A DNA stretch of 33,891 bases, taken from positions 1-33,891 of the forward strand of contig SHZF01000047.1 in NCBI GenBank assembly GCA_009692425.1, read 5' to 3'. The stretch is from Myxococcales bacterium (GTDB taxonomy: Bacteria > Myxococcota_A > UBA9042). Position numbers and translations under genes: made by a program. Positions 17,688 to 32,971 of this stretch are shown one piece after another (positions within the stretch are counted from its first letter, which is position 1; every line of letters starts with the position of its first letter). The notes below the pieces were generated by a model. The model had not been told where the DNA came from. It was given only the letters and a program-made list of their open reading frames with translations, and did no database searches.

Positions 17688-19808
17688 ATGCTGTCCACGG
17701 TGATTCGCAACCTGTCGACCCGCCGCCGCGGGGCCCTCCTCGCCGTCGGCGTGACCGCGCTCGCCGCCACGCTGGGTGCCGGGCTCGGGCGCACGGACTT
17801 CCTCGAGACGATCGAGGCCAAGTCCTACGACTGGCGCGCCCGCCACCTGCTGCGGCCTGCTCCCGCGGGCCCTTCGGTGCTCGTCCTTATCGACGAAGGC
17901 ACGCTGCGGGTGTTCAAGGACCCGCCCTATGGCGTGCGCTGGCCGTTCCCGCGCGAACTGTATTGCCCCGTGTTGCGCTACTTGAAGCACGCGGGTGCGG
18001 CGGCCGTCGCGTTCGACATCCAGTTCTCCGAGCCCGACATGGAGTTCGACCCAGCGTTTGCCGACTGCCTGCGTGCCAACGGCCGCGCGTGGCTCGCCTA
18101 CCAGTGCCAGGGCGATCACGGCGGCGACGACCGCCCGTGGCCGGTGCGCACCCAGGGCACCCCACCCTTGCCCATCCGGCGCTGCCCTGGCGTGCTGCCG
18201 ATGCCCGAACTGGCCGCCGCCGCTCACTCGGGCGCGCGCATCGACTTCGACCCAGACCCGGACGGCGTCATCCGCTGGGCCCGGGTGTTGCAGCCGTCCC
18301 GGCCCGGCGAAGCGTTGCCGCAGTTGGGCGTGGCGCCCCTCTTCGACGACGTGAGCGCCACTGCCCTGTTCACGCCGGGCCAATTGCACATCGGCCGCCA
18401 CGTGCTGCCGCTCGACGACCGTGGCCGCGTGCTGGTGCGCTGGCGGCCACCGGAGCAGCCGTGGCCGACGCACTCGTTCGCAAGTGTTTACGAGAACGGC
18501 CTGCGGCTCGACGAAGGCAAGTCCGTGACCCTGGACCCTGCACGGTTTCGCGGCAAGACCGTGTTTATCGGCGCGAGTGCAGCGGCCACTTACGAGTTCC
18601 GAGTGACGCCGATCCGCGAGGCCGACGTCGGCGTCACGCTCCACGCGGCCGTCCACGATGCGGCGGTGACGGGGGTGGCCATGCTGCGCGCCGGGGCCGG
18701 GCTCAACCTCGCGCTGCTCGTCCTGGCGGCGCTGCTGGTCGCGGGCGCGTCGCTGCTGATCGAGCGCATCTGGTTGCAGATGGCGGCGGCGGGGCTCGTC
18801 GTCGTCGTCTACCTCGGCGTCGCCGGGTGGTTGTTCGCTGCCCACGGTGTCTGGCTCGACGTGGTGTCGCCGACGCTGGCAACGCTGATCGCGTTGGGCG
18901 GCGGTACCACCATCCAGTACGCGACGGAAGGCCGCCAGAAGCGCCGCATCCGCTCGGCCTTCCAGCACTACCTTGCGCCCGCCGTCATCGATCAGGTGGT
19001 GCGGGATCCGAGCAAGCTGAGCTTGGGCGGGGAGCGCCGCGACATCACGGCGTTCTTCTCCGACATCCAGGGCTTCACCGGCATTAGCGAGAAGTTGGAC
19101 CCGACCGACCTCGTGGCGCTGCTCAACGAGTGCCTGGGCGGCATGACCGACCTCATCCTCGAATCGGGCGGCACCATCGACAAGTACATCGGCGATGCGA
19201 TCGTGGCGATGTACGGGGCCCCGCTCGACCAACCCGATCACGCCGTGCGCGGTTGCCGCGCCGCCCTGCGCTGCCAGGCTCGCCTCATCGAGTTGCGTCG
19301 GCAATGGGCCGCGCGCGGCAAGCCGGAACTGGTCGTGCGCATCGGACTCAACAGCGGCTCGGCGCTGGTCGGCAACATGGGGTCGGCGGCGCGCTTCGAC
19401 TACACGATGATGGGCGACACGGTGAACTTGGCGAGCCGGCTGGAGGGGGCCAACGCGGTGTATGGCACCTTCATCCTGGTCGGCGAGGAAGTGGTCAAGC
19501 GCGCAGAAGCAGAGGTGCTTTTCCGCGAACTGGATGCGCTGCGGGTCAAAGGCAAGAGTCTGCCGGTGCGTGTGTTTCACGTCCTTGCGATGAAGGCTGA
19601 GGCAACGCCGGCGCTGGTGGCCGTGGCCGACGGGTTCGCCCGCGGGCTGGCGGCGTACCGCGGGCAGCAGTGGGAAGTGGCGCGCGCGGCATTCGAGGCG
19701 CTGGCCGACGACCCGCCGGCCAAGGTGTTCCTCGGCAGGATTGCCGCTTTCGAGAAGAGTCCGCCAGGCGGGGGGTGGGATGGGGTGTATGAGATGACGA
19801 CGAAGTGA
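17688..19808 (+). CDS. CHASE2-domain class III adenylate cyclase
   Basis: The 706-residue protein has an N-terminal membrane segment (about 13-36), a large extracytoplasmic CHASE2 sensor (about 40-330), three closely spaced membrane segments (about 338-412) and a cytoplasmic class III cyclase domain (about 449-625). The first metal Asp is in F-F-S-D-I-Q-G-F-T and the second in K-Y-I-G-D-A-I-V-A-M-Y. D-Y-T-M-M-G-D-T-V-N-L-A-S-R provides the base-recognising Asp and the transition-state Asn/Arg, which supports ATP as substrate. The C-terminal tail of about 60 residues is the helical extension common in this family. It probably converts an envelope signal into cAMP. Confidence 0.93.
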   Translation: MLSTVIRNLSTRRRGALLAVGVTALAATLGAGLGRTDFLETIEAKSYDWRARHLLRPAPAGPSVLVLIDEGTLRVFKDPPYGVRWPFPRELYCPVLRYLKHAGAAAVAFDIQFSEPDMEFDPAFADCLRANGRAWLAYQCQGDHGGDDRPWPVRTQGTPPLPIRRCPGVLPMPELAAAAHSGARIDFDPDPDGVIRWARVLQPSRPGEALPQLGVAPLFDDVSATALFTPGQLHIGRHVLPLDDRGRVLVRWRPPEQPWPTHSFASVYENGLRLDEGKSVTLDPARFRGKTVFIGASAAATYEFRVTPIREADVGVTLHAAVHDAAVTGVAMLRAGAGLNLALLVLAALLVAGASLLIERIWLQMAAAGLVVVVYLGVAGWLFAAHGVWLDVVSPTLATLIALGGGTTIQYATEGRQKRRIRSAFQHYLAPAVIDQVVRDPSKLSLGGERRDITAFFSDIQGFTGISEKLDPTDLVALLNECLGGMTDLILESGGTIDKYIGDAIVAMYGAPLDQPDHAVRGCRAALRCQARLIELRRQWAARGKPELVVRIGLNSGSALVGNMGSAARFDYTMMGDTVNLASRLEGANAVYGTFILVGEEVVKRAEAEVLFRELDALRVKGKSLPVRVFHVLAMKAEATPALVAVADGFARGLAAYRGQQWEVARAAFEALADDPPAKVFLGRIAAFEKSPPGGGWDGVYEMTTK

Positions 19809-19969
19809 GCGGTGTGGATCGCGGCATCACCAGGTGCTTGTGCGTCACCGCCGGCGGGCATGGTCCGGGGCAGGTTGAGTGGCGGATCGGCGACGGACAG
19901 CCCCCTGTGCAAGCCCCATTCATGCGCTACACTCCGCCCGCCCAGACCAACCGGGCTCGGAGTCACGCC

Positions 19970-20467
19970 ATGAAGGGCCGCCACGTTCTCGCCGCCGCCG
20001 CTCTCGCCGCGGCCCTCCCCGCCGGGGCATTGGCCGGGCCCATGTACGTCAGCAGCCGCTTCGCCAAGGTGCGCGACGGCAAGACGGCGACCAGCCCGGT
20101 CATCGCCCAGATCGGCTACGGCCAGCCGCTCGACGTCGTCGGCGACGACGGCACGTTCTGGAAGGTGAAGTTCGCCGACGGCCGGCTCGGCTTCATCACC
20201 AAGAACTGGCTCACGGCGGCGGCGCCGGGCAAGGACGGCTTCGCGGAGCAGATCGGCGCCAAGGTGCGCGGCGGCTCCGGTGGGCAGGTCTCCTACACCG
20301 CGGGCGCACGCGGCCTCACGGAGCAGGCCCAGGCCTACGGCGCCGCGCACGACAAGGCGGCGGCCACGGCGGCGGTCGCGCGGATGGAGAACTACAAGGT
20401 GAACGCAGACGATCTCGACAAGTTTCAACTCACTGGCAAGATTGGAGAATACAAGGAGTTCAAGTGA
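19970..20467 (+). CDS. Secreted SH3-like (SH3b) domain protein
   Basis: ATG 19970 with GGAG upstream starts a Sec signal peptide (A-A-A-L-A-A-A-L-P-A-G-A-L-A), giving 165 residues. Residues about 24-85 look like a bacterial SH3 domain: Y-V-S-S-R-F-A-K-V-R-D-G-K-T-A-T-S-P-V, Q-P-L-D-V-V-G-D-D-G-T-F-W-K-V-K-F and G-R-L-G-F-I. The remainder is an Ala/Gly-rich helical tail. Such domains often bind cell-wall peptides. Its stop overlaps the start of the M48 protease gene (GTGA), so the two are translationally coupled and probably work together in the envelope. Confidence 0.83.
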   Translation: MKGRHVLAAAALAAALPAGALAGPMYVSSRFAKVRDGKTATSPVIAQIGYGQPLDVVGDDGTFWKVKFADGRLGFITKNWLTAAAPGKDGFAEQIGAKVRGGSGGQVSYTAGARGLTEQAQAYGAAHDKAAATAAVARMENYKVNADDLDKFQLTGKIGEYKEFK

Positions 20468-21414
20468 ACACTCCCCTTCTTCGCGTGGCCTCCCTGCTGC
20501 CGCTGGCGGCCCTGACCGCCAGTTGTGGCACCCTCCAACAACTCTATGCCAGCGACGACGCCATGGTCGCCGTCGCCGCGCTGAGCAAGGGAGCCGTCGC
20601 GGCCGGTGGCGCGGCGATGCCCATCGGCTACGAAGAAGAGCTCTCGTACGGCGGCGGGATCGCCGTGCAGATCATGGCCCGCTACGGTGGGCTCTATGAG
20701 GAACCGAAGGCCCGCGCCTACGTGACCTTGGTCGGCGAGACCGTCGCGATGTACAGCGGACGGCCCGACATCGAGTACCACTTTGCGATCCTGGACTCTG
20801 ACGAGGTCCAGGCGCTGTCGGGTCCCGGCGGCTACGTGTTCGTGACGCGCGGCGCGCTGGCCAAGATGAACGACGAGGCGGAACTGGCCGGTGTGTTGGC
20901 GCACGAAGTCGCGCACATCGTCGCCAAGCACGCGCTTGACATCATCCGCAAGCTCAAGACCCAGCAGGCCGTCACGAGCGCGGCCGCAGACGCGTGGAAG
21001 GAGGCGGCGCTGTTCAAGGGCTTTCTCGACGGCTTCCTCGGCGAGTACCTCGAAAAGGGCCTGCCGCGCGACACCGAGTTCGAGTCCGACAAGCTCAGCA
21101 CCGCATCGCTCGCGCAGATTGGCTGGCGCCCGGCTGGACTGCGCGATTTTCTTGCCCGGCTCGTCCAAGCCGAAAAAACGGCGGAGGGAAACTCATTTGC
21201 CCGCACCCACCCCAAGTCGGAGGAGCGCATCGCCGCCCTCGACGCCCAACTGGCTGCCTTGCCCAAGGACGGCGCCGGCAATGTCGAGCGCTTCCAGACG
21301 GCACTGGCGGCGGTGCTGCCGAAGGGCACTGCGCCGGCAGTCGCGCCAGACGCCGGGCACCCTGTGACGCTGGACCCGAACGCGCGGCCCGTGGCTCCCA
21401 CGCGCCCGCAGTAA
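20464..21414 (+). CDS. M48-family metallopeptidase lipoprotein
   Basis: The start is GTG 20464, with AAGGAG five bases upstream and overlapping the SH3 gene's stop. The long open frame upstream of it is a shadow. The 316-residue protein has a lipoprotein signal with L-T-A-S-C (Cys21), so it is likely anchored on the periplasmic side. The zinc site is H-E-V-A-H (147-151), with third ligand Glu in T-E-F-E-S-D-K (about 205-209, where the family usually has E-x-E-A-D). The preceding P-G-G-Y-V-F-V-T-R-G-A-L strand is typical of M48 proteins such as BepA and LoiP. A role in outer-membrane protein quality control is plausible. The C-terminus is Pro/Ala-rich. Confidence 0.92.
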   Translation: MNTPLLRVASLLPLAALTASCGTLQQLYASDDAMVAVAALSKGAVAAGGAAMPIGYEEELSYGGGIAVQIMARYGGLYEEPKARAYVTLVGETVAMYSGRPDIEYHFAILDSDEVQALSGPGGYVFVTRGALAKMNDEAELAGVLAHEVAHIVAKHALDIIRKLKTQQAVTSAAADAWKEAALFKGFLDGFLGEYLEKGLPRDTEFESDKLSTASLAQIGWRPAGLRDFLARLVQAEKTAEGNSFARTHPKSEERIAALDAQLAALPKDGAGNVERFQTALAAVLPKGTAPAVAPDAGHPVTLDPNARPVAPTRPQ

Positions 21415-21427
21415 GCTGGTTGCGCCC

Positions 21428-22837
21428 ATGAACCTCACCGCCACCGTCCACGGCTCGTCGTTCACGTTCACGTCGCTGAAGGACGCACTCAACAAGGCGA
21501 GCGAGCGCAAGTCGGGCGACCTTGGCGCAGGCCTGGCCGCGGCGTCGATGCGCGAGCGGGTGGCTGCCAAGCGGGTGATCGGCGACGTAGAACTGCGCCA
21601 CTTCTTCGAACAGCCGTCGGTGCCCTACGAGCAGGACGAGGTGACGCGCGTGGTCATCGACGACCTCGACGCGCGCGCCCACCGCCGCGTGGCTGCTTGG
21701 ACGGCGGCGCAGTTGCGCGAGTGGTTGCTCGATCGGCGGACCACGGCCCAGGACATTGCCGACATCGGCCCAGGGCTCACGCCCGAAATGGTGAGCGCCG
21801 TAGCCAAGCTGATGAGCGCCCTCGATCTCGTCGTCGTCGGCCGCAAGATGCGCGTGGTGCGGCGCTGCAACAACACGATCGGCCTCGAAGGGCGCACCGC
21901 CTCGCGCCTGCAGCCCAACCACCCGACCGACTCCGTGCCCGGCATCCTCGCCGCGATGAAGGAAGGCCTCAGCTACGGCAACGGCGACGCCGTCATCGGC
22001 ATCAACCCGAGCACCGAGAGCGTCGAGAACACCGCCAACATCTTGAAGGCGGTCAAAGACCTGATGCGCCAGCACCGCATTCCGACCCAGGTCTGCGTGC
22101 TGGCCCACGTGACGGTGCAGATGGAGGCGCTGCGGCGCTTCCAGGCGCCGATCGACCTGTGCTTCCAGTCGCTGGCAGGCTCCGAGAAGGCCAACCGCAA
22201 CTTCGGCATCTCGGTGGCGCTGCTCGACGAGGCCTACGATCTGGTGCGCCGCGAGGGCACCGCTGAGGGGCCGCACGTCATGTATTTCGAGACGGGGCAG
22301 GGCACGGCGCTGTCGGCAAACGCCCACTTCGGCACCGACCAGACCACCATGGAGGCCCGTGCCTACGGGCTGGCGCGCCGCTATACGCCGTTTCTCGTCA
22401 ATACCGTGGTCGGCTTCATCGGGCCGGAGTACCTGCAAGATGGCAAGCAAATCACGCGCGCGGGCCTCGAAGACCACTTCATGGGCAAGCTCATGGGCAT
22501 CTCGATGGGCTGTGACGCCTGCTACACGAATCACGCCGACGCCGACCAGGACGACCAGGAAATCCTCGAACTACTCCTGACCTCGGCCGGTTGCACGTAC
22601 CTGATGGGGATTCCGCTCGGCGACGACGTGATGCTGAACTACCAGACGACGAGTTTCCACGACAATGCGACCGTGCGCGAATTGTACGGCATGCGGCCGG
22701 CGCCGGAATTCGAGGCGTGGCTGGAGCGCGTGGGGCTGTGGCGCAATGGCAAGCTGACCGAACGCGCGGGCGACCCGACCGTGTTCGACTCGCCGTTCAG
22801 CCTGCGGGCGGAGCGGCGTGCACGGAGTCCAGGTTGA
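21428..22837 (+). CDS. eutB: Ethanolamine ammonia-lyase large subunit
   Basis: EutB, with EutC, is the adenosylcobalamin-dependent enzyme splitting ethanolamine to acetaldehyde and ammonia. The 469 residues contain the conserved barrel segments R-L-Q-P-N-H-P-T-D-S-V-P, S-Y-G-N-G-D-A-V-I-G-I-N-P, C-V-L-A-H-V-T-V-Q and C-F-Q-S-L-A-G-S-E-K-A-N, plus M-G-C-D-A-C-Y-T-N-H. It ends near the usual point (R-A-G-D-P-T-V-F), then adds about 16 residues that overlap a MazF fragment on the other strand. No eutC follows; the downstream DNA is mobile-element debris. The partner gene may have been lost or may lie elsewhere. Confidence 0.94.
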   Translation: MNLTATVHGSSFTFTSLKDALNKASERKSGDLGAGLAAASMRERVAAKRVIGDVELRHFFEQPSVPYEQDEVTRVVIDDLDARAHRRVAAWTAAQLREWLLDRRTTAQDIADIGPGLTPEMVSAVAKLMSALDLVVVGRKMRVVRRCNNTIGLEGRTASRLQPNHPTDSVPGILAAMKEGLSYGNGDAVIGINPSTESVENTANILKAVKDLMRQHRIPTQVCVLAHVTVQMEALRRFQAPIDLCFQSLAGSEKANRNFGISVALLDEAYDLVRREGTAEGPHVMYFETGQGTALSANAHFGTDQTTMEARAYGLARRYTPFLVNTVVGFIGPEYLQDGKQITRAGLEDHFMGKLMGISMGCDACYTNHADADQDDQEILELLLTSAGCTYLMGIPLGDDVMLNYQTTSFHDNATVRELYGMRPAPEFEAWLERVGLWRNGKLTERAGDPTVFDSPFSLRAERRARSPG

Positions 22838-23318: not shown

Positions 23319-23385
23319 GAAGACCTCCGGGCCGTGTAGGTAGCACGGCTTTGGGTCTGTCACGATTCAGCTGAGGCAGGACAGC

Positions 23386-23445
23386 GGGGACCTGGATTCC
23401 GCTGCGGAGACCTGCATTCCGCTGCGGGGACCTGCGTCCCGGCGT
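23386..23445. repeat. 20-bp tandem repeat, three copies
   Basis: The unit GGGGACCTGGATTCCGCTGC repeats at 23386, 23406 and 23426 with increasing divergence. It lies just outside the transposase fragment. Multiple short repeats at an element end recall the repeated transposase-binding sites of IS21-like elements, but I cannot assign the family. Confidence 0.75.
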
Positions 23446-23672: not shown

Positions 23673-26600
23673 ATGCAAAGCGGTGGAAGAGTGCGCAGGT
23701 GTGCCGCCCGCGGCCTGCTGGGGCTCGCCGTGGGCCTGCCCGGGTGCTCGAATCCGCCCGCGCTCGCGCCGCCCGCGGCAGCGGCAGAACCCGAAGATGG
23801 GGCGGCCATCGATGCGCACATCCAAGACGCCGTCGCGCCTGACACCCGCGCTCTGCCCGACATCGCCAAGGCCGACGCGGCCAAGCTCGGTTGTGCGACG
23901 GACGACGACTGCAAAGGCCTGCCCGCGTCTGGCTGCAAGCGCGCGACGTGCGACCTGACGCAGGCGGCGCCGGTATGCGTGCTGACGGACCGGGCCCTGA
24001 GTTCCAAGTGCGACGACGGCAAGGCGTGCACCGGCAACGACGCGTGCATCGAAGGCGCCGTGTGCGCAGGCACGCTCGCGTGCGACGACGGCAAGCCGTG
24101 CACGACCGGCGCCTGCGACGACGAGGGCAATTGCGCGTCATCGAACAACAAGAATGCCTGTGACGACAACAATGCGTGTACGACGGGCGACATCTGCGAC
24201 AAGGGCGCGTGCATCGCGACGAATGCGATCAAGGACGAGCAGTGCCCCGACGACGGCAACGCGTGTACCGCTGCCAACTGCGACGCGAAAATCGGTTGCG
24301 CGCACGTGGCGCGGGCCGACGGGTCGTTGTGCTCCGACGGCGATCAGTGCACCGAAGCCGAGAAGTGCAAGACCGGCAAGTGTGAGGGCGGGGTGGCGGT
24401 GACGTGCAAGGACGACGGCAACCCGTGCACCGCCGAGAAGTGCGACAGCAAGTTCGGCTGCGAGAAGTTGCCGGCCAAGCAGGGCGAGCCGTGCAACGAT
24501 GGGGTCGCGTGCAGCGTCGACGACATCTGCGTCAACGCGAAGTGCGCCGGCAAGCCGCATCCGCTGCTGACGCCGAGCAACCCGTGTCTCGATGCGGTGC
24601 CGGTCGCGAACGCGCCGACGTGCACGGTGACGTTGGTGGCGAAGGTCGGCCCGTGCGACGACGGCGTCGGCTGCACCAAGCAGGACCAGTGCAAGCAGGG
24701 CAAGTGCGATGGCACCAAGCTCGTGTGCAACGACGGCAACCCGTGCACCGACGACGCCTGCGACGAGAAGAAGTGCATCGTCGGCACCGACTGCGGCTAT
24801 TGCGCGGTGACGGCGAAGCCCGAGGGCACGGTGTGCGACGACGGCGACAAGTGCACGTCGGCCGATGCGTGCGGGCTCGACCCGAAGACGAAACTGCAGA
24901 CGTGCTCGGGCAAGAAATGGGAGTCGACGGCGCAGTGCGAAGACAAGAACGGCTGCACGAACGACTCGTGCCAGCCCGCGATCGGCTGCCTGCACGTGCC
25001 GACGGACGGCAAGTTCTGCGACGACGGCAACCCGTGCACGATCCCGGACACGTGTCTGGGCCCGTCGTGCAAGGGCAAGAAGAAGGACTGCGCGGACAGC
25101 TTGCCGTGTACGTTGGACGCCTGCGATGCGAAATCGGGCAGTTGCACCCACGCCAAGCAGGAGGCCGTGCCGTGCGACGACGGCAACAAGTGTACCGAGA
25201 AGGATTTCTGCAGCGCGGGCGTCTGCGACGGCCAGGCGATCGTGTGCAACGACCTGAACCCGTGCACGAACGACTTCTGTTCGACGCAGTTCGGCTGCCA
25301 GAAGCTGCCGCTCGCCGGTGGCGCCAAGTGCGACGATGGGCTGTCGTGCACGATCGACGACTACTGCGACGCGGGCCAGTGCATCTCGGTGACGAATTCG
25401 TGCCTCGGCTGCAAGACCGACATCGAGTGCGCGGCGTACGACGACGGCAACATCTGCAACGGGCTGGTGCGCTGCATCCCCGGCCCGAAGTCGGCGGTTT
25501 GTGCGGTCGACGTCAAGACGGTCATCACCTGCGACGCTGCGAAGGACAGCGACTGCTCGAAGAACACGTGCGACGCCAACACGGGCAAATGCGGCGTGGT
25601 GCTCAAGGCGGAAGCGGCGCCATGCGCGACCGGCAACAAGTGCCTTCAGAACGCGACGTGTACGGCCGAGGGCTCGTGCGTGGGCATTGCGGTCAAGTGC
25701 GACGACAACGAAGCGTGCACGACCGACGTGTGCGACTCCAAGAAGGGCTGCATCGGCAAGCCGCTGGCCGACAACGAGGTCTGCAACGACAACAACGCGT
25801 GCACGCCCAACGACAAGTGCAACGGCGGCAAGTGCCTGGGCGACGAGAACACCTGCAAGTGCAAGAGCGACAGCGAATGCCTCAGCTATGACGACGGCAA
25901 CCTGTGCAACGGCACGTTCAAGTGCGCCGACAAGGGCGCCGGCCTGTTCGTGTGCGAGAAGGCCGCCAAGACCGAGGTGACGTGCCCACCGGACAAGACC
26001 CAGCCGTGCCTCGACCAGGTGTGCAGCGCCGTTTCTGGCAAATGCGAAGGCAAGCCGAAACCCGACGCTGCGGCGTGCGACGACGGCAATGCCTGCAGCG
26101 CGGCGGACAGTTGCGTGGGCGGCAAGTGTGCATCGACCAAGAAAGCGAACTGCGACGACGACAACAAGTGTACGGCCGACATCTGCGACAAGGTGTTCGG
26201 CTGTGATCACGCGACGCTGGCGTCGGGCGCATTGTGCGACGACGGCAACGCGTGCACGGACAAGGATACGTGCGTCAAGCAGGTGTGCGCCGGCACGGCA
26301 GTCAAGTGCGACGACGGCAACCCGTGCACGATCAACGTGTGCAACAAGGTCAAGGGTGGTTGCTCGGTGGTGCTCGACGACAACCTGACGTGCGACGACG
26401 GCGACCCGTGCTCGGAGAAGGACAACTGCAAGGACGGCGCCTGCAAGGGCGCGGTGCTGAATTGCGACGACGGCAACCCGTGCTCGATCGACAACTGCGA
26501 CGGCAAGGGCGGCTGCAAGAACGTAATGATCGAAAACAAGGACTGCCAGGACGGCGACTCGTGCACGACGGGCGACACGTGCATCGGCGGCAAATGCCTA

Positions 26601-29600
26601 GGAAAGGCAAATGATTGCAACGACAACAACCCATGCACCGAAGAGTCGTGCGCCAAGGGCACGTGCGCCGTGCTGCCCTCGACCGGCAAGGCCTGCGACG
26701 ACGGCAATGCGTGTACCGAAGGCGACAAGTGCAGCGGCGGCGGCGCCTGCGAGGGCGGCACGGTGCAGTGCAAGGCCGACGGCGTGTGCGGCGTCGTCGT
26801 GCAGTGCTCGCCGACCAAGGGTTGCGTCATTGCGGCGAACGACGGTGTGAGTTGCAACGACAACGACGCGTGTACCGGCAGCGACAAGTGCGCGGGCGGC
26901 GGCTGCCAGGGCATCACGATCGACTGCGACGACAAGAACCTGTGTACGCTCGACGGCTGCGACCCCAAGAAAGGCTGCCAGATCAAGCAGAACACTTGCA
27001 ACGACAAGAACGACTGCACGTTCGACAAGTGCGACCAGAAGCAGGGGTGCGTCTACGAGGCGATCGACGGCGCGGCGTGCGACGACGGCGACCCGTGCAC
27101 CGAGAAGGGCAAGTGCGCCGTCGACAAGTGCAAGAGCGTGCCGAAGCCGTGCGACGACAAGAACTCGTGCACGGTGGATTCATGCAATTCTGAGGATCTC
27201 GACGGCAACCCGTGCGTGTTCCTGGCCGGGGCCGCGACCCAGGTGACGTGCGCCGATTCCAATCCGTGCACCGACGACACCTGCGTGGCGGGCAAGTGCA
27301 CGGCGACCACGACGGTGTGCGACGACAAGCTGCCGTGCACAGTCGATTCGTGCGACGCGCTCAAGGGCTGCGTCGTGGAAGACGTGGCCGAGGGCGGGGC
27401 GTGCGACGACGACGACACCTGCACGGACAAGACGGTGTGCCAGTCGGGCATCTGCTCGGGCGGCTCGATCACGTGCGAACTGTGCCCGACGGGCGCGCAG
27501 TCCGAATGCGACATCTTTGACGACAACAACAAGTGCAACGGTTGGAAGAAGTGCACGAAGAAGCTGCCCGGCGACAAGGGCGGCGTGTGCGCGCCGCAGA
27601 AGGAGCCCGTGGTGTGCGACTCGGGCCAGAACGGCGCGTGCATCAAGAACCAGTGCAATTCGGCGTCGGGCAAATGCGAGATGACCGAGGCGGTCAACGG
27701 CACGAAATGTGAAGACGGCGCGGGCTGCACCGCCAACGACTACTGCCTGTCGGGCACGTGCGCGGCCGGCGGCCCGACCGAGTGCGGCGCGACGAAGAAC
27801 CCCTGCTACGACCCGAAGTGCGTCGAAGATCCCGGCGGCAAGCTCGGCTATGTGTGCGTGGCGCTGCCGAAAGAGGGCAGCCCGGCGTGCGACTCCGACG
27901 GCGACGGCTGCACGGCCGGAGACCGCTGCGAGGCCGGCTCCTGCAAGGTGGGGCCCAAGGTTGACTGCTCGGGTGTGGCCGGAAAATGCCAGGTAGCTTC
28001 GTGCAAGTCGTTGACACCAGACAAGTTCGAGTGCGCGGTGGCGCTCGCCGTCGATAGCGCGCCGTGTGACGACGGGCAGTTGTGCACGGTCGGCGACAGT
28101 TGCAAGACCGGCAAGTGCATCGCGGGAACAAAGCCGTATGATTGCGCGAAGTTGAACGGTACGTGCGCGCTCGGATTCTGCGACAAGAGCGGCAACGCGG
28201 GCAGTGGCGCGTGCTTCCCGCAGCCCCAGAACGAGGGGGCGACGTGCGACTCCGACGGCAACGGCTGCACCACGGCCGATCGCTGCGTGGCCGGCTTCTG
28301 CGTGCCGGGTGTGCCGCCGGACTGCGAGAATTCGTCGAGCCAGTGCACGATCGGCGCGTGCAAGTCGGTGAACGAGACGACGTTCCAGTGCGTCGGCGCG
28401 CCCAAGAAGGACCTGCTGCCGTGCGAAGCCGACCAGAACGGCTGCACGGTCGGCGACGCGTGCAAGGCGGGCGTGTGCGGCGCAGGCAAGGCGGTGGACT
28501 GCGGCCAGAAATCCTCGGCAGACGGCTGCCTCGTCGGCACGTGCAAATCGCTGGGCCCGGCGCAGAATACCTGCGTGGCCGAGCCCGCCAAGCTGGGCAC
28601 GACGTGCGATTCCGACAACAACGGCTGCACCAAGGGCGATGCCTGCAACAAGGAGGGGGCGTGCATCCCCGGCAACGCCGTGGACTGCCTGGCGTTCACC
28701 GGTTCGTGCGCCCAAGGCCTGTGCAAGTCGATGGGGGCGGCGACCTTCCAGTGTGAGGGCACGCCCAAGCCCGACGGCGCTGCGTGCGACGCCGACCTGA
28801 CGGGCTGCACCGACAAGGACACATGCAAGGGCGGCAAGTGCATCCCGGGCGCGCCGATCGATTGCAGCGCCAAGGCGGTCAACGTGTGCCTGACGGCGAA
28901 GTGCATCCCCGCCGGCTCCGACAAGTACCAGTGCGACGCTGCGCCGCTGAAGGAGGGCACGCCGTGCAACTTCGACAGCGACGGCTGCACGTTCGACGAC
29001 GGCTGCCAACTGGGCTTCTGCACCGCCGGCGACTACGACACCTGCTCGACGGCGCAGTCGGCGTGTGCGGAAGCGAAGTGCAAGTCGACGGGCACGAACA
29101 CGCGCAAATGCGACCTCACCGCGCTCGAGTCGTATGTGACGCTCGACCCCGCCCTGGCGTGCACGCCGACCGACGTGCCGTCCAAATGCGCGCCCGGCTA
29201 CACGTGCCTGCTGGTGGACCAGTCGACGAAGTCCGGCATCTGCTCGCCGACGAAGCAGGTCGGCTGCGACGACAAGAACCTGTGCAGCGAATCGGACACC
29301 TGCAGCGCCGGCAAGTGCGTTTCCGGCAAGCAGAAAGACTGCAACGACAAGGACCCGTGCACGTTGGATGCGTGCAACGTCTCGTCCGGCAAGTGCGTCA
29401 ACAGCCCGATCACCGGGTGCACGGCGTGCATCTACGAGAAGTTCGACGACCCGTACCCCAAAAGCGTGCAGGCGACCGGCGACGAGCCGAAGTGGCTGCT
29501 GTGGAAGATCAGCAAGGACAAGCCATTCGACACGAGCGAGTCCCACCTGCGCGCCCAGTGGACAGTGCCCAAGATTGCGTCGAAGCCGGACGAGATTGCG

Positions 29601-31031
29601 GTCAAGACCAGCGTAGCCACCGGCTACCGCTTCCGCCGCATCTACGCGACGACGACGGTGGCGCCGGTGCTCGATTTCTACCTGGCCACGAAGTTGCCGA
29701 CGCAGGATTGTGCCATTGATGACTTTCAGGTCTTGGTCAACCGCCATGTGGTCTACGAGAAGTGCGGCGACACGAAGACAGCCGACCTGGAGGCGGGTTC
29801 GAGCTATTATGAGCACGTCAAGATCGACCTGCAGGCGTTCGCCGGAATGCCGATCGACCTCGAGTTGCGCGCAGTGGTCTCGCCACAGGTCGGCCAGCAG
29901 GGGCTGATCGATGTGGACAGCCTGCGCCTCGTCGGTTCGTGCGGTCCCGGTTGCCTGGGGGCGACGTTCGAGCCGGAGCCGGCGCAGCCGGACTTCCCCT
30001 ACGACCAGATGCCCCAGCCGTGGACGTTCTCGAGTTCGCCCGGTGCCGATGCGTACCTCGGCTGGCAGTTGAAGGAACTCGCACCGCCCCTGAAGGCGCA
30101 CAGCGGTGCATGGCTCGCGCAGTCCAAGTACGCCGGCGCACCTCCCAACGGCGTGCCCGCCACTGCCACTTTGAGAGTCCCGCAGGTCCGCGGCAGCAAG
30201 GGCGACAAGTTCTACTTCAACATCCGGGCCACGGACCTCGGCGACGTGAACTGTGGTGCCGATGACCTCATCATCCGCATGACGCCCCATGATGCCGCGG
30301 GCAAAGCCTTGGCGCCGAAGGAGGTGTACCAGCGCTGCAATCCGCAGCCGACGTGGAAGGAGGAGTCGTTCGATCTGCCCGAAGGCGTGACGGTCGACAT
30401 CGAGTTCCAGGTCATCAGCGGCGCCGCCTCGACGGCGAAGGGTACGTGGCAGCTCGACGACTTGGGTGTGCTGGGCACCTGCAGGTACGCGTGCTTCTCT
30501 GCGAACTTCGACACGAACGGCATCGGCAGTTGGAGCGGGTTTTCCAACAGCCCAACCACGATGCCACTGTGGAAAGCCGACAACCAACAGGCGTATTCGC
30601 CGCCCACCGCGGCGTACCAAAGCTACGGCGCGAACGCCGCCCAGCAGAAAGCGGCGACGTTGACGCACAAGACGGGCTTCCTCTGGCCCGTCATGGGCGG
30701 CACCTACAGCCTGCGCCACAACCTGTTTCTCGACCAGGACACCTGTAACGCCGGCTCGCCCCCGCCGGTGCGTCTCAACGCGGTCAGTCAATACGACCCG
30801 CAAGCACCGGTCGAGAAGGCCGACGTCGTGCTCGGCACCGTAGCCACCTGGTGCAAGTCGACCGGCCTGGGCGGCACAGGGGCGTGGGAACTGCACGCTG
30901 GCGAACTGCCCGACACGTTGTTCGGGGGGTCACTGCCTACCGGCCTGCGCTTTCAACTCGCCGTCATCCGTGTTCCTGCGGTCAACCAAGTCAAGGCCTG
31001 GTTCGACAACATCGGCATTCAATGTCGCTGA
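23673..31031 (+). CDS. Giant cysteine-rich repeat lipoprotein (2452 aa)
   Basis: ATG 23673 with GGGAGGAG upstream starts a signal ending in lipobox G-L-P-G-C, so the protein is anchored in the envelope. Residues about 65-1919 are a continuous array of short modules of two alternating types. One reads C-D-D-G-N-x-C-T-x-x-D-x-C-x-x-G-x-C; the other reads C-D-D-G-N-P-C-T-x-D-x-C-D-x-x-x-G-C. A pair spans roughly 45-50 residues. The acidic D-D-G-N and D-S-D-G-D-G loops suggest calcium binding plus disulfides. Residues 1919-2452 are three related domains, each opening near a Cys and an E-K-F or A-x-F-E/D motif and the first two closing with an acidic pair and G-S/T-C. They look like jelly-roll or MAM-like sandwiches. 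Similar proteins occur in Myxococcota. The function is unknown; adhesion or a surface fibre is plausible. Confidence 0.9.
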   Translation: MQSGGRVRRCAARGLLGLAVGLPGCSNPPALAPPAAAAEPEDGAAIDAHIQDAVAPDTRALPDIAKADAAKLGCATDDDCKGLPASGCKRATCDLTQAAPVCVLTDRALSSKCDDGKACTGNDACIEGAVCAGTLACDDGKPCTTGACDDEGNCASSNNKNACDDNNACTTGDICDKGACIATNAIKDEQCPDDGNACTAANCDAKIGCAHVARADGSLCSDGDQCTEAEKCKTGKCEGGVAVTCKDDGNPCTAEKCDSKFGCEKLPAKQGEPCNDGVACSVDDICVNAKCAGKPHPLLTPSNPCLDAVPVANAPTCTVTLVAKVGPCDDGVGCTKQDQCKQGKCDGTKLVCNDGNPCTDDACDEKKCIVGTDCGYCAVTAKPEGTVCDDGDKCTSADACGLDPKTKLQTCSGKKWESTAQCEDKNGCTNDSCQPAIGCLHVPTDGKFCDDGNPCTIPDTCLGPSCKGKKKDCADSLPCTLDACDAKSGSCTHAKQEAVPCDDGNKCTEKDFCSAGVCDGQAIVCNDLNPCTNDFCSTQFGCQKLPLAGGAKCDDGLSCTIDDYCDAGQCISVTNSCLGCKTDIECAAYDDGNICNGLVRCIPGPKSAVCAVDVKTVITCDAAKDSDCSKNTCDANTGKCGVVLKAEAAPCATGNKCLQNATCTAEGSCVGIAVKCDDNEACTTDVCDSKKGCIGKPLADNEVCNDNNACTPNDKCNGGKCLGDENTCKCKSDSECLSYDDGNLCNGTFKCADKGAGLFVCEKAAKTEVTCPPDKTQPCLDQVCSAVSGKCEGKPKPDAAACDDGNACSAADSCVGGKCASTKKANCDDDNKCTADICDKVFGCDHATLASGALCDDGNACTDKDTCVKQVCAGTAVKCDDGNPCTINVCNKVKGGCSVVLDDNLTCDDGDPCSEKDNCKDGACKGAVLNCDDGNPCSIDNCDGKGGCKNVMIENKDCQDGDSCTTGDTCIGGKCLGKANDCNDNNPCTEESCAKGTCAVLPSTGKACDDGNACTEGDKCSGGGACEGGTVQCKADGVCGVVVQCSPTKGCVIAANDGVSCNDNDACTGSDKCAGGGCQGITIDCDDKNLCTLDGCDPKKGCQIKQNTCNDKNDCTFDKCDQKQGCVYEAIDGAACDDGDPCTEKGKCAVDKCKSVPKPCDDKNSCTVDSCNSEDLDGNPCVFLAGAATQVTCADSNPCTDDTCVAGKCTATTTVCDDKLPCTVDSCDALKGCVVEDVAEGGACDDDDTCTDKTVCQSGICSGGSITCELCPTGAQSECDIFDDNNKCNGWKKCTKKLPGDKGGVCAPQKEPVVCDSGQNGACIKNQCNSASGKCEMTEAVNGTKCEDGAGCTANDYCLSGTCAAGGPTECGATKNPCYDPKCVEDPGGKLGYVCVALPKEGSPACDSDGDGCTAGDRCEAGSCKVGPKVDCSGVAGKCQVASCKSLTPDKFECAVALAVDSAPCDDGQLCTVGDSCKTGKCIAGTKPYDCAKLNGTCALGFCDKSGNAGSGACFPQPQNEGATCDSDGNGCTTADRCVAGFCVPGVPPDCENSSSQCTIGACKSVNETTFQCVGAPKKDLLPCEADQNGCTVGDACKAGVCGAGKAVDCGQKSSADGCLVGTCKSLGPAQNTCVAEPAKLGTTCDSDNNGCTKGDACNKEGACIPGNAVDCLAFTGSCAQGLCKSMGAATFQCEGTPKPDGAACDADLTGCTDKDTCKGGKCIPGAPIDCSAKAVNVCLTAKCIPAGSDKYQCDAAPLKEGTPCNFDSDGCTFDDGCQLGFCTAGDYDTCSTAQSACAEAKCKSTGTNTRKCDLTALESYVTLDPALACTPTDVPSKCAPGYTCLLVDQSTKSGICSPTKQVGCDDKNLCSESDTCSAGKCVSGKQKDCNDKDPCTLDACNVSSGKCVNSPITGCTACIYEKFDDPYPKSVQATGDEPKWLLWKISKDKPFDTSESHLRAQWTVPKIASKPDEIAVKTSVATGYRFRRIYATTTVAPVLDFYLATKLPTQDCAIDDFQVLVNRHVVYEKCGDTKTADLEAGSSYYEHVKIDLQAFAGMPIDLELRAVVSPQVGQQGLIDVDSLRLVGSCGPGCLGATFEPEPAQPDFPYDQMPQPWTFSSSPGADAYLGWQLKELAPPLKAHSGAWLAQSKYAGAPPNGVPATATLRVPQVRGSKGDKFYFNIRATDLGDVNCGADDLIIRMTPHDAAGKALAPKEVYQRCNPQPTWKEESFDLPEGVTVDIEFQVISGAASTAKGTWQLDDLGVLGTCRYACFSANFDTNGIGSWSGFSNSPTTMPLWKADNQQAYSPPTAAYQSYGANAAQQKAATLTHKTGFLWPVMGGTYSLRHNLFLDQDTCNAGSPPPVRLNAVSQYDPQAPVEKADVVLGTVATWCKSTGLGGTGAWELHAGELPDTLFGGSLPTGLRFQLAVIRVPAVNQVKAWFDNIGIQCR

Positions 31032-31066
31032 CAATCTGGCACCACCCCCAACGTGTGCCGTGCCCG

Positions 31067-32971
31067 ATGTGGACGCGTGCGGCGGTGTGGGCTGCGTTGC
31101 TCGTGGCGGGCTGTGCAGACGCCAGACTCCCCGCCGCGCCCGCAGCCTCGGATGGCTGGATCGGCCGGCGCGTGGCCGATGTGGGCAGCGCCATCGAAAC
31201 AGTGCCGGCGCGGACAGACGTCGTGCTGGAAGATGGAGCCGGCGCTGACCACGTCGTCGCTGAACCCATCGAGGCGGGGACCGATGGCGGTCGCCGTGGG
31301 GCAGTGGACGGCACACCGACGGACACCGCCGCCAGGGTTCCCGACGCCCCCGTGCTGCCCGACAGTCGCAGCGCTCCCGACATGCCAGTGGCGTCGGACC
31401 TCTCCGGCGCCGCCGACATCGCCGCAGACGCCGACGGCATCGCAGGATTCGATGGGTGGGGCGAAACCGATGGGTGGGACGAATCCGCCACGGGCGGCGA
31501 TGACGTGGCGTGGCCCTGCCAGGCCGCGACGCCCTGCGACGACGACAACGTGTGCACCTTGGACGAGTGCGACGCGGTCAAGGGCTGCAAGTTCACGCCG
31601 GTCGCCCAAGGCACGGCATGTGACGATGGCGTGGTGTGCAGCGTCCAGGACGCGTGCGCCAACGGGACGTGCGACCCCGGCCCCGATGCCCTGTGGGACA
31701 TTGCCTTTGGCGGACCAAAGGGCGAAGCCGTTTTCGGGATCGCCGCCCGCGCCGATGGCTCCGTCGTCATGGTGGGCCGCGTCCACGTCGTGACCGCGCC
31801 GCCCAAGTCTGACGCCTGGGTCATCGCGCTGGGTCCCGGCGGCAAGGCGATCTGGAGCACCGTGGCCGATGCTGTCGTCCTCAGTGCCGCCAACGCCGGG
31901 CAACAGTCGGAGTTCCGCGACGTGGCTACATTCGCCAACGGCGGCGGCGTTGCCGTTGGCTACGTCGGGGTCCCACCTGGCGACATCGACGGCTGCGCGT
32001 TCCGGTTCGATGCCCAGGGCAAGAAGCTGGGAGCCCTGCTGTGGGGCACTGCGGGAACGCCCGATTTTCTCAATGCAGTCAACATTTCCGGCCCGCTGGT
32101 GTTCGTCGCGGGAGCCCAGGGCAGTAACGGCGGCGACGGGCTGATCGATGTCTTCCCGGCTGAGGCGGGCGCGCCGGACCCGCCGGCGGTGGCGTTTGGC
32201 GGCGTGGACGCCGAGGCGTTCAATGATGTGGCCGTCATTCCGGGCGGCGGCGTGCTGGCGGCTGGCGACGTCAAGGTGAGCAATGGCGGCGGGGCCAAAG
32301 GCACCCAGCAGGGCTTCCTGGTGCGAACGACTGCGGACCTCAAGGGGGTGTGGCAAGTCCAGACCAGCGGCACCGGCAACCGTTCCGTGTCCGAGGTCCT
32401 GGTCCTGGCCGCAGGCTTTCTCGCCGTGGGGCGCACGTGGGCCGAAACCGGCGGTTCCGCCATGTGGCTGCTGCGCTTGGACGCAGGCGGCCAGACCCTG
32501 TGGCAACAGAGTTGGAGTGAGGCGGGCAGTGCCGCGGCGACCGGACTCGTGGCGCTCGGCAGCGGGTTTCTCGTGGTGGGCCATGCGACAGTGCCCGGCA
32601 GTGCCACCGACGGCTGGCTCCTGTGGGTCAACGGCAGCGGCGGCGTCGTGGGAGCCCACGGGGTTGGCGGCGCGAAGGACGATGAGTTCCTCGCCTTGGC
32701 CCAAACCGGCGGAGCGCTCGTGGCAGCGGGAACGACCAACTCCAAGGGCTCAGGCCAACTGGACGCCTGGATGGTGCGAATGGACATGTTCGGCAACGCC
32801 AGTTGTGACAACAGCGGGACGTGTCTCGGCCAGGCCAACTCCTGTGACGACGCCAACGCGTGCACGGCAGACCTGTGCTCGGCCAAGGGCGGTTGCATCC
32901 ATGCCAAAGCCAACGATGGCACCGTGTGTGGGACGCTGGTGGCATGCACGGGTGGCAACTGCGGGCCGTAG
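31067..32971 (+). CDS. Lipoprotein with cysteine-rich modules flanking a beta-propeller-like core
   Basis: The ATG at 31067 gives a compact lipoprotein signal M-W-T-R-A-A-V-W-A-A-L-L-V-A-G-C. An alternative ATG at 31022 overlaps the end of the giant gene and adds 15 residues. A linker of about 130 Asp/Ala/Pro-rich residues leads to two C-D-D-D-N/C-D-D-G modules like those of the upstream protein. Next comes a core of about 350 residues with repeated strands of the kind G-G-G-V-A-V-G-Y, G-G-G-V-L-A-A-G-D, A-G-F-L-A-V-G-R and S-G-F-L-V-V-G-H. These resemble delta-60/beta-propeller-like repeats. One more cysteine-rich module (S-C-D-D-A-N-A-C-T) closes the protein. It directly follows the giant lipoprotein gene and is probably cotranscribed with it. 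Confidence 0.85.
   Translation: MWTRAAVWAALLVAGCADARLPAAPAASDGWIGRRVADVGSAIETVPARTDVVLEDGAGADHVVAEPIEAGTDGGRRGAVDGTPTDTAARVPDAPVLPDSRSAPDMPVASDLSGAADIAADADGIAGFDGWGETDGWDESATGGDDVAWPCQAATPCDDDNVCTLDECDAVKGCKFTPVAQGTACDDGVVCSVQDACANGTCDPGPDALWDIAFGGPKGEAVFGIAARADGSVVMVGRVHVVTAPPKSDAWVIALGPGGKAIWSTVADAVVLSAANAGQQSEFRDVATFANGGGVAVGYVGVPPGDIDGCAFRFDAQGKKLGALLWGTAGTPDFLNAVNISGPLVFVAGAQGSNGGDGLIDVFPAEAGAPDPPAVAFGGVDAEAFNDVAVIPGGGVLAAGDVKVSNGGGAKGTQQGFLVRTTADLKGVWQVQTSGTGNRSVSEVLVLAAGFLAVGRTWAETGGSAMWLLRLDAGGQTLWQQSWSEAGSAAATGLVALGSGFLVVGHATVPGSATDGWLLWVNGSGGVVGAHGVGGAKDDEFLALAQTGGALVAAGTTNSKGSGQLDAWMVRMDMFGNASCDNSGTCLGQANSCDDANACTADLCSAKGGCIHAKANDGTVCGTLVACTGGNCGP

Follow-up and report, generated by a model that had tools for sequence, protein, structure and literature searches.

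The analysed window, a stretch of 33,891 nucleotides corresponding to contig C96 in the MAG of an uncultured member of the Myxococcota (4.94 Mb, 137 contigs), contains the gene of a giant lipoprotein whose Cys-rich modules are nearly unchanged in number and order across at least nine genera of its family of uncultured freshwater myxobacteria. The gene is a single open reading frame (23673..31031, + strand, as are all window features given below) encoding 2452 residues, with clear orthologs in 20 of the 22 genomes of the family. The protein matches the Dicty_CTDC profile of Pfam (PF00526) in 20 stretches with E=4.8e-23 and 81.1 bits, above the curated cut-off of 27. The profile has no match in 14 control genomes, indicating that the Cys pattern of the giant protein is not due to chance. 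We tentatively read the protein, with a confidence that falls a little short of calling it probable, as a lipid-anchored, disulfide-locked stalk of fixed length that carries MAM/CBM-like ligand-binding domains and is plausibly delivered to the surface with the assistance of TAM.

Residues 1-25 (23673..23747) form a signal peptide that ends with the lipobox-like sequence VGLPGC, in which Cys25 is the probable lipidated residue. The lipobox is atypical and does not pass a strict PROSITE-style pattern because of the Pro at position -2. A strict lipobox is present at the equivalent place in fifteen orthologs, and the mature length calculated from Cys25, 2428 residues, is within the range of the orthologs. 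The protein is predicted to be lipidated at Cys25, and it may be exposed on the cell surface. The signal peptide is followed by a low-complexity tether rich in acidic residues, Ala, and Pro (residues 26-73, 23748..23891), and equivalent acidic tethers are found in the orthologs. A VKOR-family protein is encoded in the same genome, which fits oxidative folding.

The rod, formed by 1,846 residues with Dicty_CTDC repeats (residues 73-1918), contains 264 of the 278 Cys residues of the protein. It is composed of 14.3% Cys and 11.9% Asp and has a net charge of -106. The stalk comprises about 66 small CTDC half-modules with the pattern C-x-D-G-[ND]-x-C-T-x-x-D-x-C-x-x-G-x-C (Cys spacing 5-5-4) or its 5-4-5/6 variant. 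The half-modules pair into double units of about 52 residues, with the spacing C-x5-C-x5-C-x4-C followed by C-x5-C-x4-C-x5/6-C. According to the Cys spacing, the double units form the first part of the rod (residues 74-1394, 23892..27854), which is interrupted by three special insert modules: residues 577-650 (25401..25622), with a C-N-G motif and an unchanged position throughout the orthologs; residues 728-801 (25854..26075); and residues 1268-1345 (27474..27707), which have lower confidence within the modelled segment. The second part consists of seven 60-residue units (residues 1395-1813, 27855..29111) and is the stretch most conserved among the orthologs. The end modules of the rod (residues 1814-1918, 29112..29426) include the best single Pfam CTDC stretch, residues 1889-1913.

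Structures of the rod and head were predicted with moderate confidence. The AlphaFold2 model of rod residues 1061-1540, calculated from 16 sequences, has a pLDDT of 75.2 and a pTM of 0.28; 350 of the 480 residues have pLDDT values of 70-90, and none is below 50. The segment is predicted to fold mostly into serial beta-hairpins. The best Foldseek match of the rod segment is the heavy chain of the Entamoeba Gal/GalNAc lectin (E=2.7e-7, probability 0.98, TM 0.11-0.17), a giant Cys-rich surface adhesin. However, the low TM-scores of the rod and head matches (0.11-0.23) indicate local fold similarity only, and the profile of the rod has no sequence match to the lectin among solved structures. The likeness is probably convergent or very distant. 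Searches of solved structures with the sequence of the whole protein and with the rod profile gave no matches at all.

A conserved D-x-[ND] and a later Asp are present within the half-modules, and these Asp/Asn positions suggest, at most, that the rod binds calcium. Together with the net charge of -106, they agree with an alternative, suggested in a preliminary description of the locus, in which the protein forms a matrix binding calcium or another metal, or a structure for contact with prey. Predators occur among the named myxobacteria, but the records found for this lineage are all MAGs, and we consider this alternative very improbable.

The head of the protein (residues 1919-2452, 29427..31028) is Cys-poor and is predicted to contain three tandem beta-sandwich domains (residues 1919-2090, 2094-2270, and 2274-2452), each of which opens with C-x4-F at residues 1919, 2094, and 2274, respectively. 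Its AlphaFold2 model has a pLDDT of 77 and a pTM of 0.55, and its Foldseek matches include reelin, tandem CBM22, meprin, CBM4, and SGBP-B. The fold resembles the jelly-rolls of choice-of-anchor J, MAM, and CBM domains, whereas the sequence scores are below the curated cut-offs: 22.2 bits for choice-of-anchor J (NF038128, NCBIfam cut-off 30) and 11.8 bits for InhA-like MAM (PF20773, Pfam cut-off 26.9). The head of a related paralogue on contig C105 reaches 31.8 bits with InhA-like MAM, which is above the cut-off. A search of solved structures with the head profile gave a single match, with E=0.94. The predicted fold suggests that the head may bind a ligand, for which a glycan or glycoprotein is the likeliest candidate. 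The same head type is also found on much shorter proteins with frames of about 950-1260 residues (L062:18069-19568, C105:56716-59568; G016:C65; G114:C147; G075:C179), so that one head seems to be displayed on two stalk lengths. The preliminary description had proposed a very large Cys- and Asp-rich lipoprotein with an export signal, an ordered rod, and three C-terminal sandwich domains. The size and composition of the frame and the PF00526 match agree with it, the strict lipoboxes of the orthologs support the export signal by homology, the tandem hairpins are predicted at a pLDDT of 75, and the three domains are borne out by the head model, the Foldseek matches, and the C-x4-F starts.

The orthologs, identified with residues 1395-1916 as the query, are 49-63% identical to the giant protein across the full query; in one of the 20 genomes, the ortholog is split into two pieces on separate contigs. 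No ortholog was found in 30 other genomes of the class, in which the best match is partial, with 202 bits. The ortholog frames are mostly 2422-2532 residues long; one has 3198 residues, and some end early at contig ends. Measured from the lipobox Cys, the mature lengths are 2367-2441 residues, with a coefficient of variation of 0.9% (n=16, including the window protein). Of the 264 rod Cys residues, 255 are invariant across the 17 proteins aligned, and the identity to the window protein is 46-53% in the rod and 25-36% in the head. When the rod is divided into eight-Cys segments, 26-30 of the 32 segments have their best match in their own counterpart in every ortholog, and the misses are mostly among the first four. 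The repeat number of such tandem proteins usually changes rapidly, through both gains and losses. A homogenised array was ruled out because colinear segments match each other best, and a freely varying repeat number was ruled out for the giant protein by the ortholog alignment and the family-wide lengths. The frozen length, Cys positions, and colinear modules show that the giant rod is more than a dispensable spacer made of repeats. The 2592-residue paralogue on contig C31 has best matches that are mostly partial and in proteins of varied length, and the 2022-residue paralogue on C115 is intermediate between the two patterns.

Two earlier impressions of the rod require correction. The modules had been called near-uniform; they are individually distinct, with 52-residue units, three inserts, and 60-residue units in a frozen order, and the eight-Cys segments within the giant protein have a mean identity to one another of only 38%. 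The rod had also been described as lifting three domains off the membrane, which understates it, because conservation is higher in the rod than in the head.

Named records that carry orthologs were found with the ortholog alignment as the query and are MAGs of uncultured Myxococcales, Deltaproteobacteria, or Proteobacteria, many of them named after lakes; the head alone as the query gave no match in named genomes. A full ortholog is also present in CAMDBH010000028.1 (L142), titled as a Klebsiella pneumoniae MAG, and the title is therefore probably wrong.

The giant gene of the window is an extra copy. Comparison of the neighbours of the orthologs with each other, all in MAG assemblies, revealed a conserved locus, in which a second conserved CTDC protein is encoded upstream of the giant gene in 13 family genomes. 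Next in line, 12 genomes encode a conserved protein with about 1,500 residues, and seven encode a further conserved protein. Two of the 1,500-residue proteins were scanned and both match TamB (PF04357), and the one further neighbour scanned matches POTRA and Omp85. According to a manual count from a table, 18 of 20 family loci have a CTDC-like reading frame adjoining TamB, whereas none of 10 loci from outside the family does. The TamB-adjoining CTDC lipoproteins form an ortholog group (L191; G000:C59:3922-10717) with frames of about 590-740 residues in nearly all family genomes. In the window's own genome, TamB is located on C59 next to the CTDC frame C59:3922-6033, an ortholog of the TamB-side CTDC neighbours in the relatives. 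Divergent from this frame is a second giant copy, of which the N-terminal part runs off C59 and the C-terminal part is found at the end of C128; the ends of the two contigs share an overlap of exactly 71 bp. The identity of these parts to the window protein is 83% and 79%, respectively.

The second copy and most orthologs adjoin TamB and the CTDC lipoprotein gene, whereas the window copy does not and is thus a non-syntenic extra copy. This duplication of a TamB/Omp85-side gene is visible only by comparing genomes, beyond the reach of a first reading of the window. The genes upstream in the window (17688-22837), which encode a CHASE2-adenylate cyclase, an M48 peptidase, and the large subunit of ethanolamine ammonia-lyase, are not conserved beside the orthologs. 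The EutB gene is separated from the giant gene by a long gap of about 835 bp, which contains 2.6 copies of a 20-bp tandem repeat (23384-23435). Downstream, another CTDC lipoprotein frame of 649 residues (31022..32971, start ATG 31022, PF00526 E=6.7e-13) overlaps the 3' end of the giant gene by 10 bp and encodes a protein with the lipobox LVAGC, a pair of CTDC modules, an extended Cys-poor middle region, and a C-terminal CTDC. The dN/dS ratios between the two giant copies are 0.17 and 0.12 for the rod and 0.33 for the head, indicating that both copies are constrained, the rod more strongly than the head.

The likeness to TAM (TamA/TamB)/Omp85 systems is one of gene neighbourhood: TamB and Omp85 genes neighbour the gene in the relatives, whereas the window copy is located elsewhere. 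Common descent, rather than a functional link, may account for this neighbourhood. Published work on TamB and surface lipoproteins includes several papers on Borrelia. Alternatively to surface display, the protein might act as an envelope-spanning or assembly factor that is periplasmic or sits on the inner side of the outer membrane, with TamB/Omp85 as its partner and its length set by the distance across the envelope. The fixed length, the single-copy, family-wide occurrence, and the CTDC lipoprotein and TamB genes adjoining it would fit such a role. However, a stalk of seventy-odd modules probably exceeds the width of the periplasm, the extra copy is away from TamB, two family genomes that carry TamB seem to be without the giant gene, and the binding-type heads of other CTDC proteins occur without linkage to TamB. 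We regard this role as improbable.

It is also possible, although unlikely, that giant CTDC lipoproteins form an extracellular layer, a structural matrix or coat in which the rod does the work and the head only docks, and which is assembled partly by intermolecular disulfides or lateral packing of rods. The higher conservation of the rod and the stronger selection on it speak for such a layer, as does the lack of any head on many CTDC paralogues. The PF00526 repeat is shared with ecmA, ecmB, pdiA, and psiA of Dictyostelium, which are large secreted Cys-rich proteins, and the Dictyostelium CTDC proteins are matrix proteins (PMC4931340). The window protein differs from them in being a bacterial lipoprotein, with about 20 Pfam-called repeats in 1,850 residues. 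CREMP, a component of disulfide-rich eggshell fibres, also has long runs of four-Cys modules of a and b types and is folded only when its disulfides are formed (PMC3068167). The resemblance is one of module pattern: the CREMP spacing C-x4-C-x5-C-x8-C-x6/11 differs from the 5-5-4 and 5-4-5/6 of the window protein, and CREMP, unlike the latter, has neither a head nor a lipid anchor. Against a coat, each half-module of the rod has its own full set of four Cys residues, which would be expected if they pair intramolecularly, and all full-length orthologs checked have kept the three-domain head.

The many paralogues anticipated in the preliminary description are present. The PF00526 search of the genome gave at least 150 matches out of 1,621 first-look candidates, and at least 67 CTDC reading frames were identified on about 40 contigs (e.g. 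C128:7236-13133, C58:4770-9689, and C20:41328-46964), occupying about 270 kb, or at least 5.5% of the DNA. The 67 frames come from 1.31 Mb of sequence and are a lower bound because the regions were chosen partly by the matches and the genome was read in part. Genomes of the Dictyostelium group have 11 to 15 CTDC genes each, with protein hits counted differently (PMC4931340). An automatic test for a strict lipobox was passed by 41 of the 67 frames, and less strict inspection of the N termini points to additional ones. Right behind the lipobox Cys, many CTDC N termini have the motif C-x2-6-V-x-G (e.g. CGTDAAVDGPG and CSEDAPVVGSS), which is absent from the giant protein. It was found in 14 of 41 CTDC lipoproteins and 3 of 41 others (Fisher p=0.005); the motif was tested on the data in which it had been noticed, and the comparison set was obtained with a crude coding filter in which most CTDC genes were lost. 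The motif is a lead to a possible lipoprotein sorting signal.

The CTDC heads in the genome are mostly unrelated to one another: in an all-against-all comparison, 27 tails of at least 80 residues fell into 24 similarity groups. Heads scoring above Pfam cut-offs include Laminin_G_3, RCC1, CotH, LTD, SBBP, NHL, InhA-like MAM, and copper-binding (plastocyanin-like) domains. The tail of C55:29271-32693 (L086:978-2693) has a weak match, below the cut-off, to LBP/BPI lipid-binding domains. In the phylum sample, PF00526 is matched in 167 of 284 genomes, and the first-look candidates, as loose numbers, are by far most numerous in the class of the window and peak in its family. In line with the preliminary description, which had called the family functionally uncharacterised, no functional study of bacterial CTDC proteins was found in the literature searched.

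The display of unrelated binding-type heads on paralogous stalks argues for the lipid-anchored stalk as our preferred reading, as do the frozen modules, the dN/dS ratios, the predicted hairpins, the local likeness of the rod to the Entamoeba lectin and of the head to reelin, meprin, and carbohydrate-binding modules, the lipoboxes of the orthologs, the TamB and CTDC neighbours, and the VKOR-family protein. The atypical lipobox and the position of the window copy away from TamB speak against it, and the lower conservation of the head counts against the head as the working end. According to the preferred reading, the protein would be exported by Sec and anchored through Cys25. A flexible acidic tether would lead to a stiff stalk of disulfide-stapled beta-hairpin half-modules in fixed number and order, which may be maintained by a required length or by specific contacts along the modules. 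The stalk would hold three jelly-roll domains, whose glycan or glycoprotein ligand could belong to another cell or to the extracellular matrix, and TAM machinery may help to place such stalks on the outer surface. The window gene is a duplicate of a core family gene that the relatives keep beside the second CTDC lipoprotein, TamB, and Omp85. A bolder proposal, which we consider unlikely, is that TamB/Omp85 delivers fixed-length stalks that act as molecular rulers, one stalk design with dozens of heads, as a bacterial counterpart of the CTDC matrix proteins of social amoebae.

A repeat family that takes its name from slime moulds accounts for at least 5.5% of the DNA of this genome, with one type of stalk joined to propellers and to LamG, MAM, CotH, LTD, and plastocyanin-like heads. 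The linkage to TamB/Omp85 provides a concrete hypothesis about the possible route of such proteins to the surface. Since an array of 1,850 residues with 264 Cys has been kept module for module, the reason for its exact length and order is a directly testable question.
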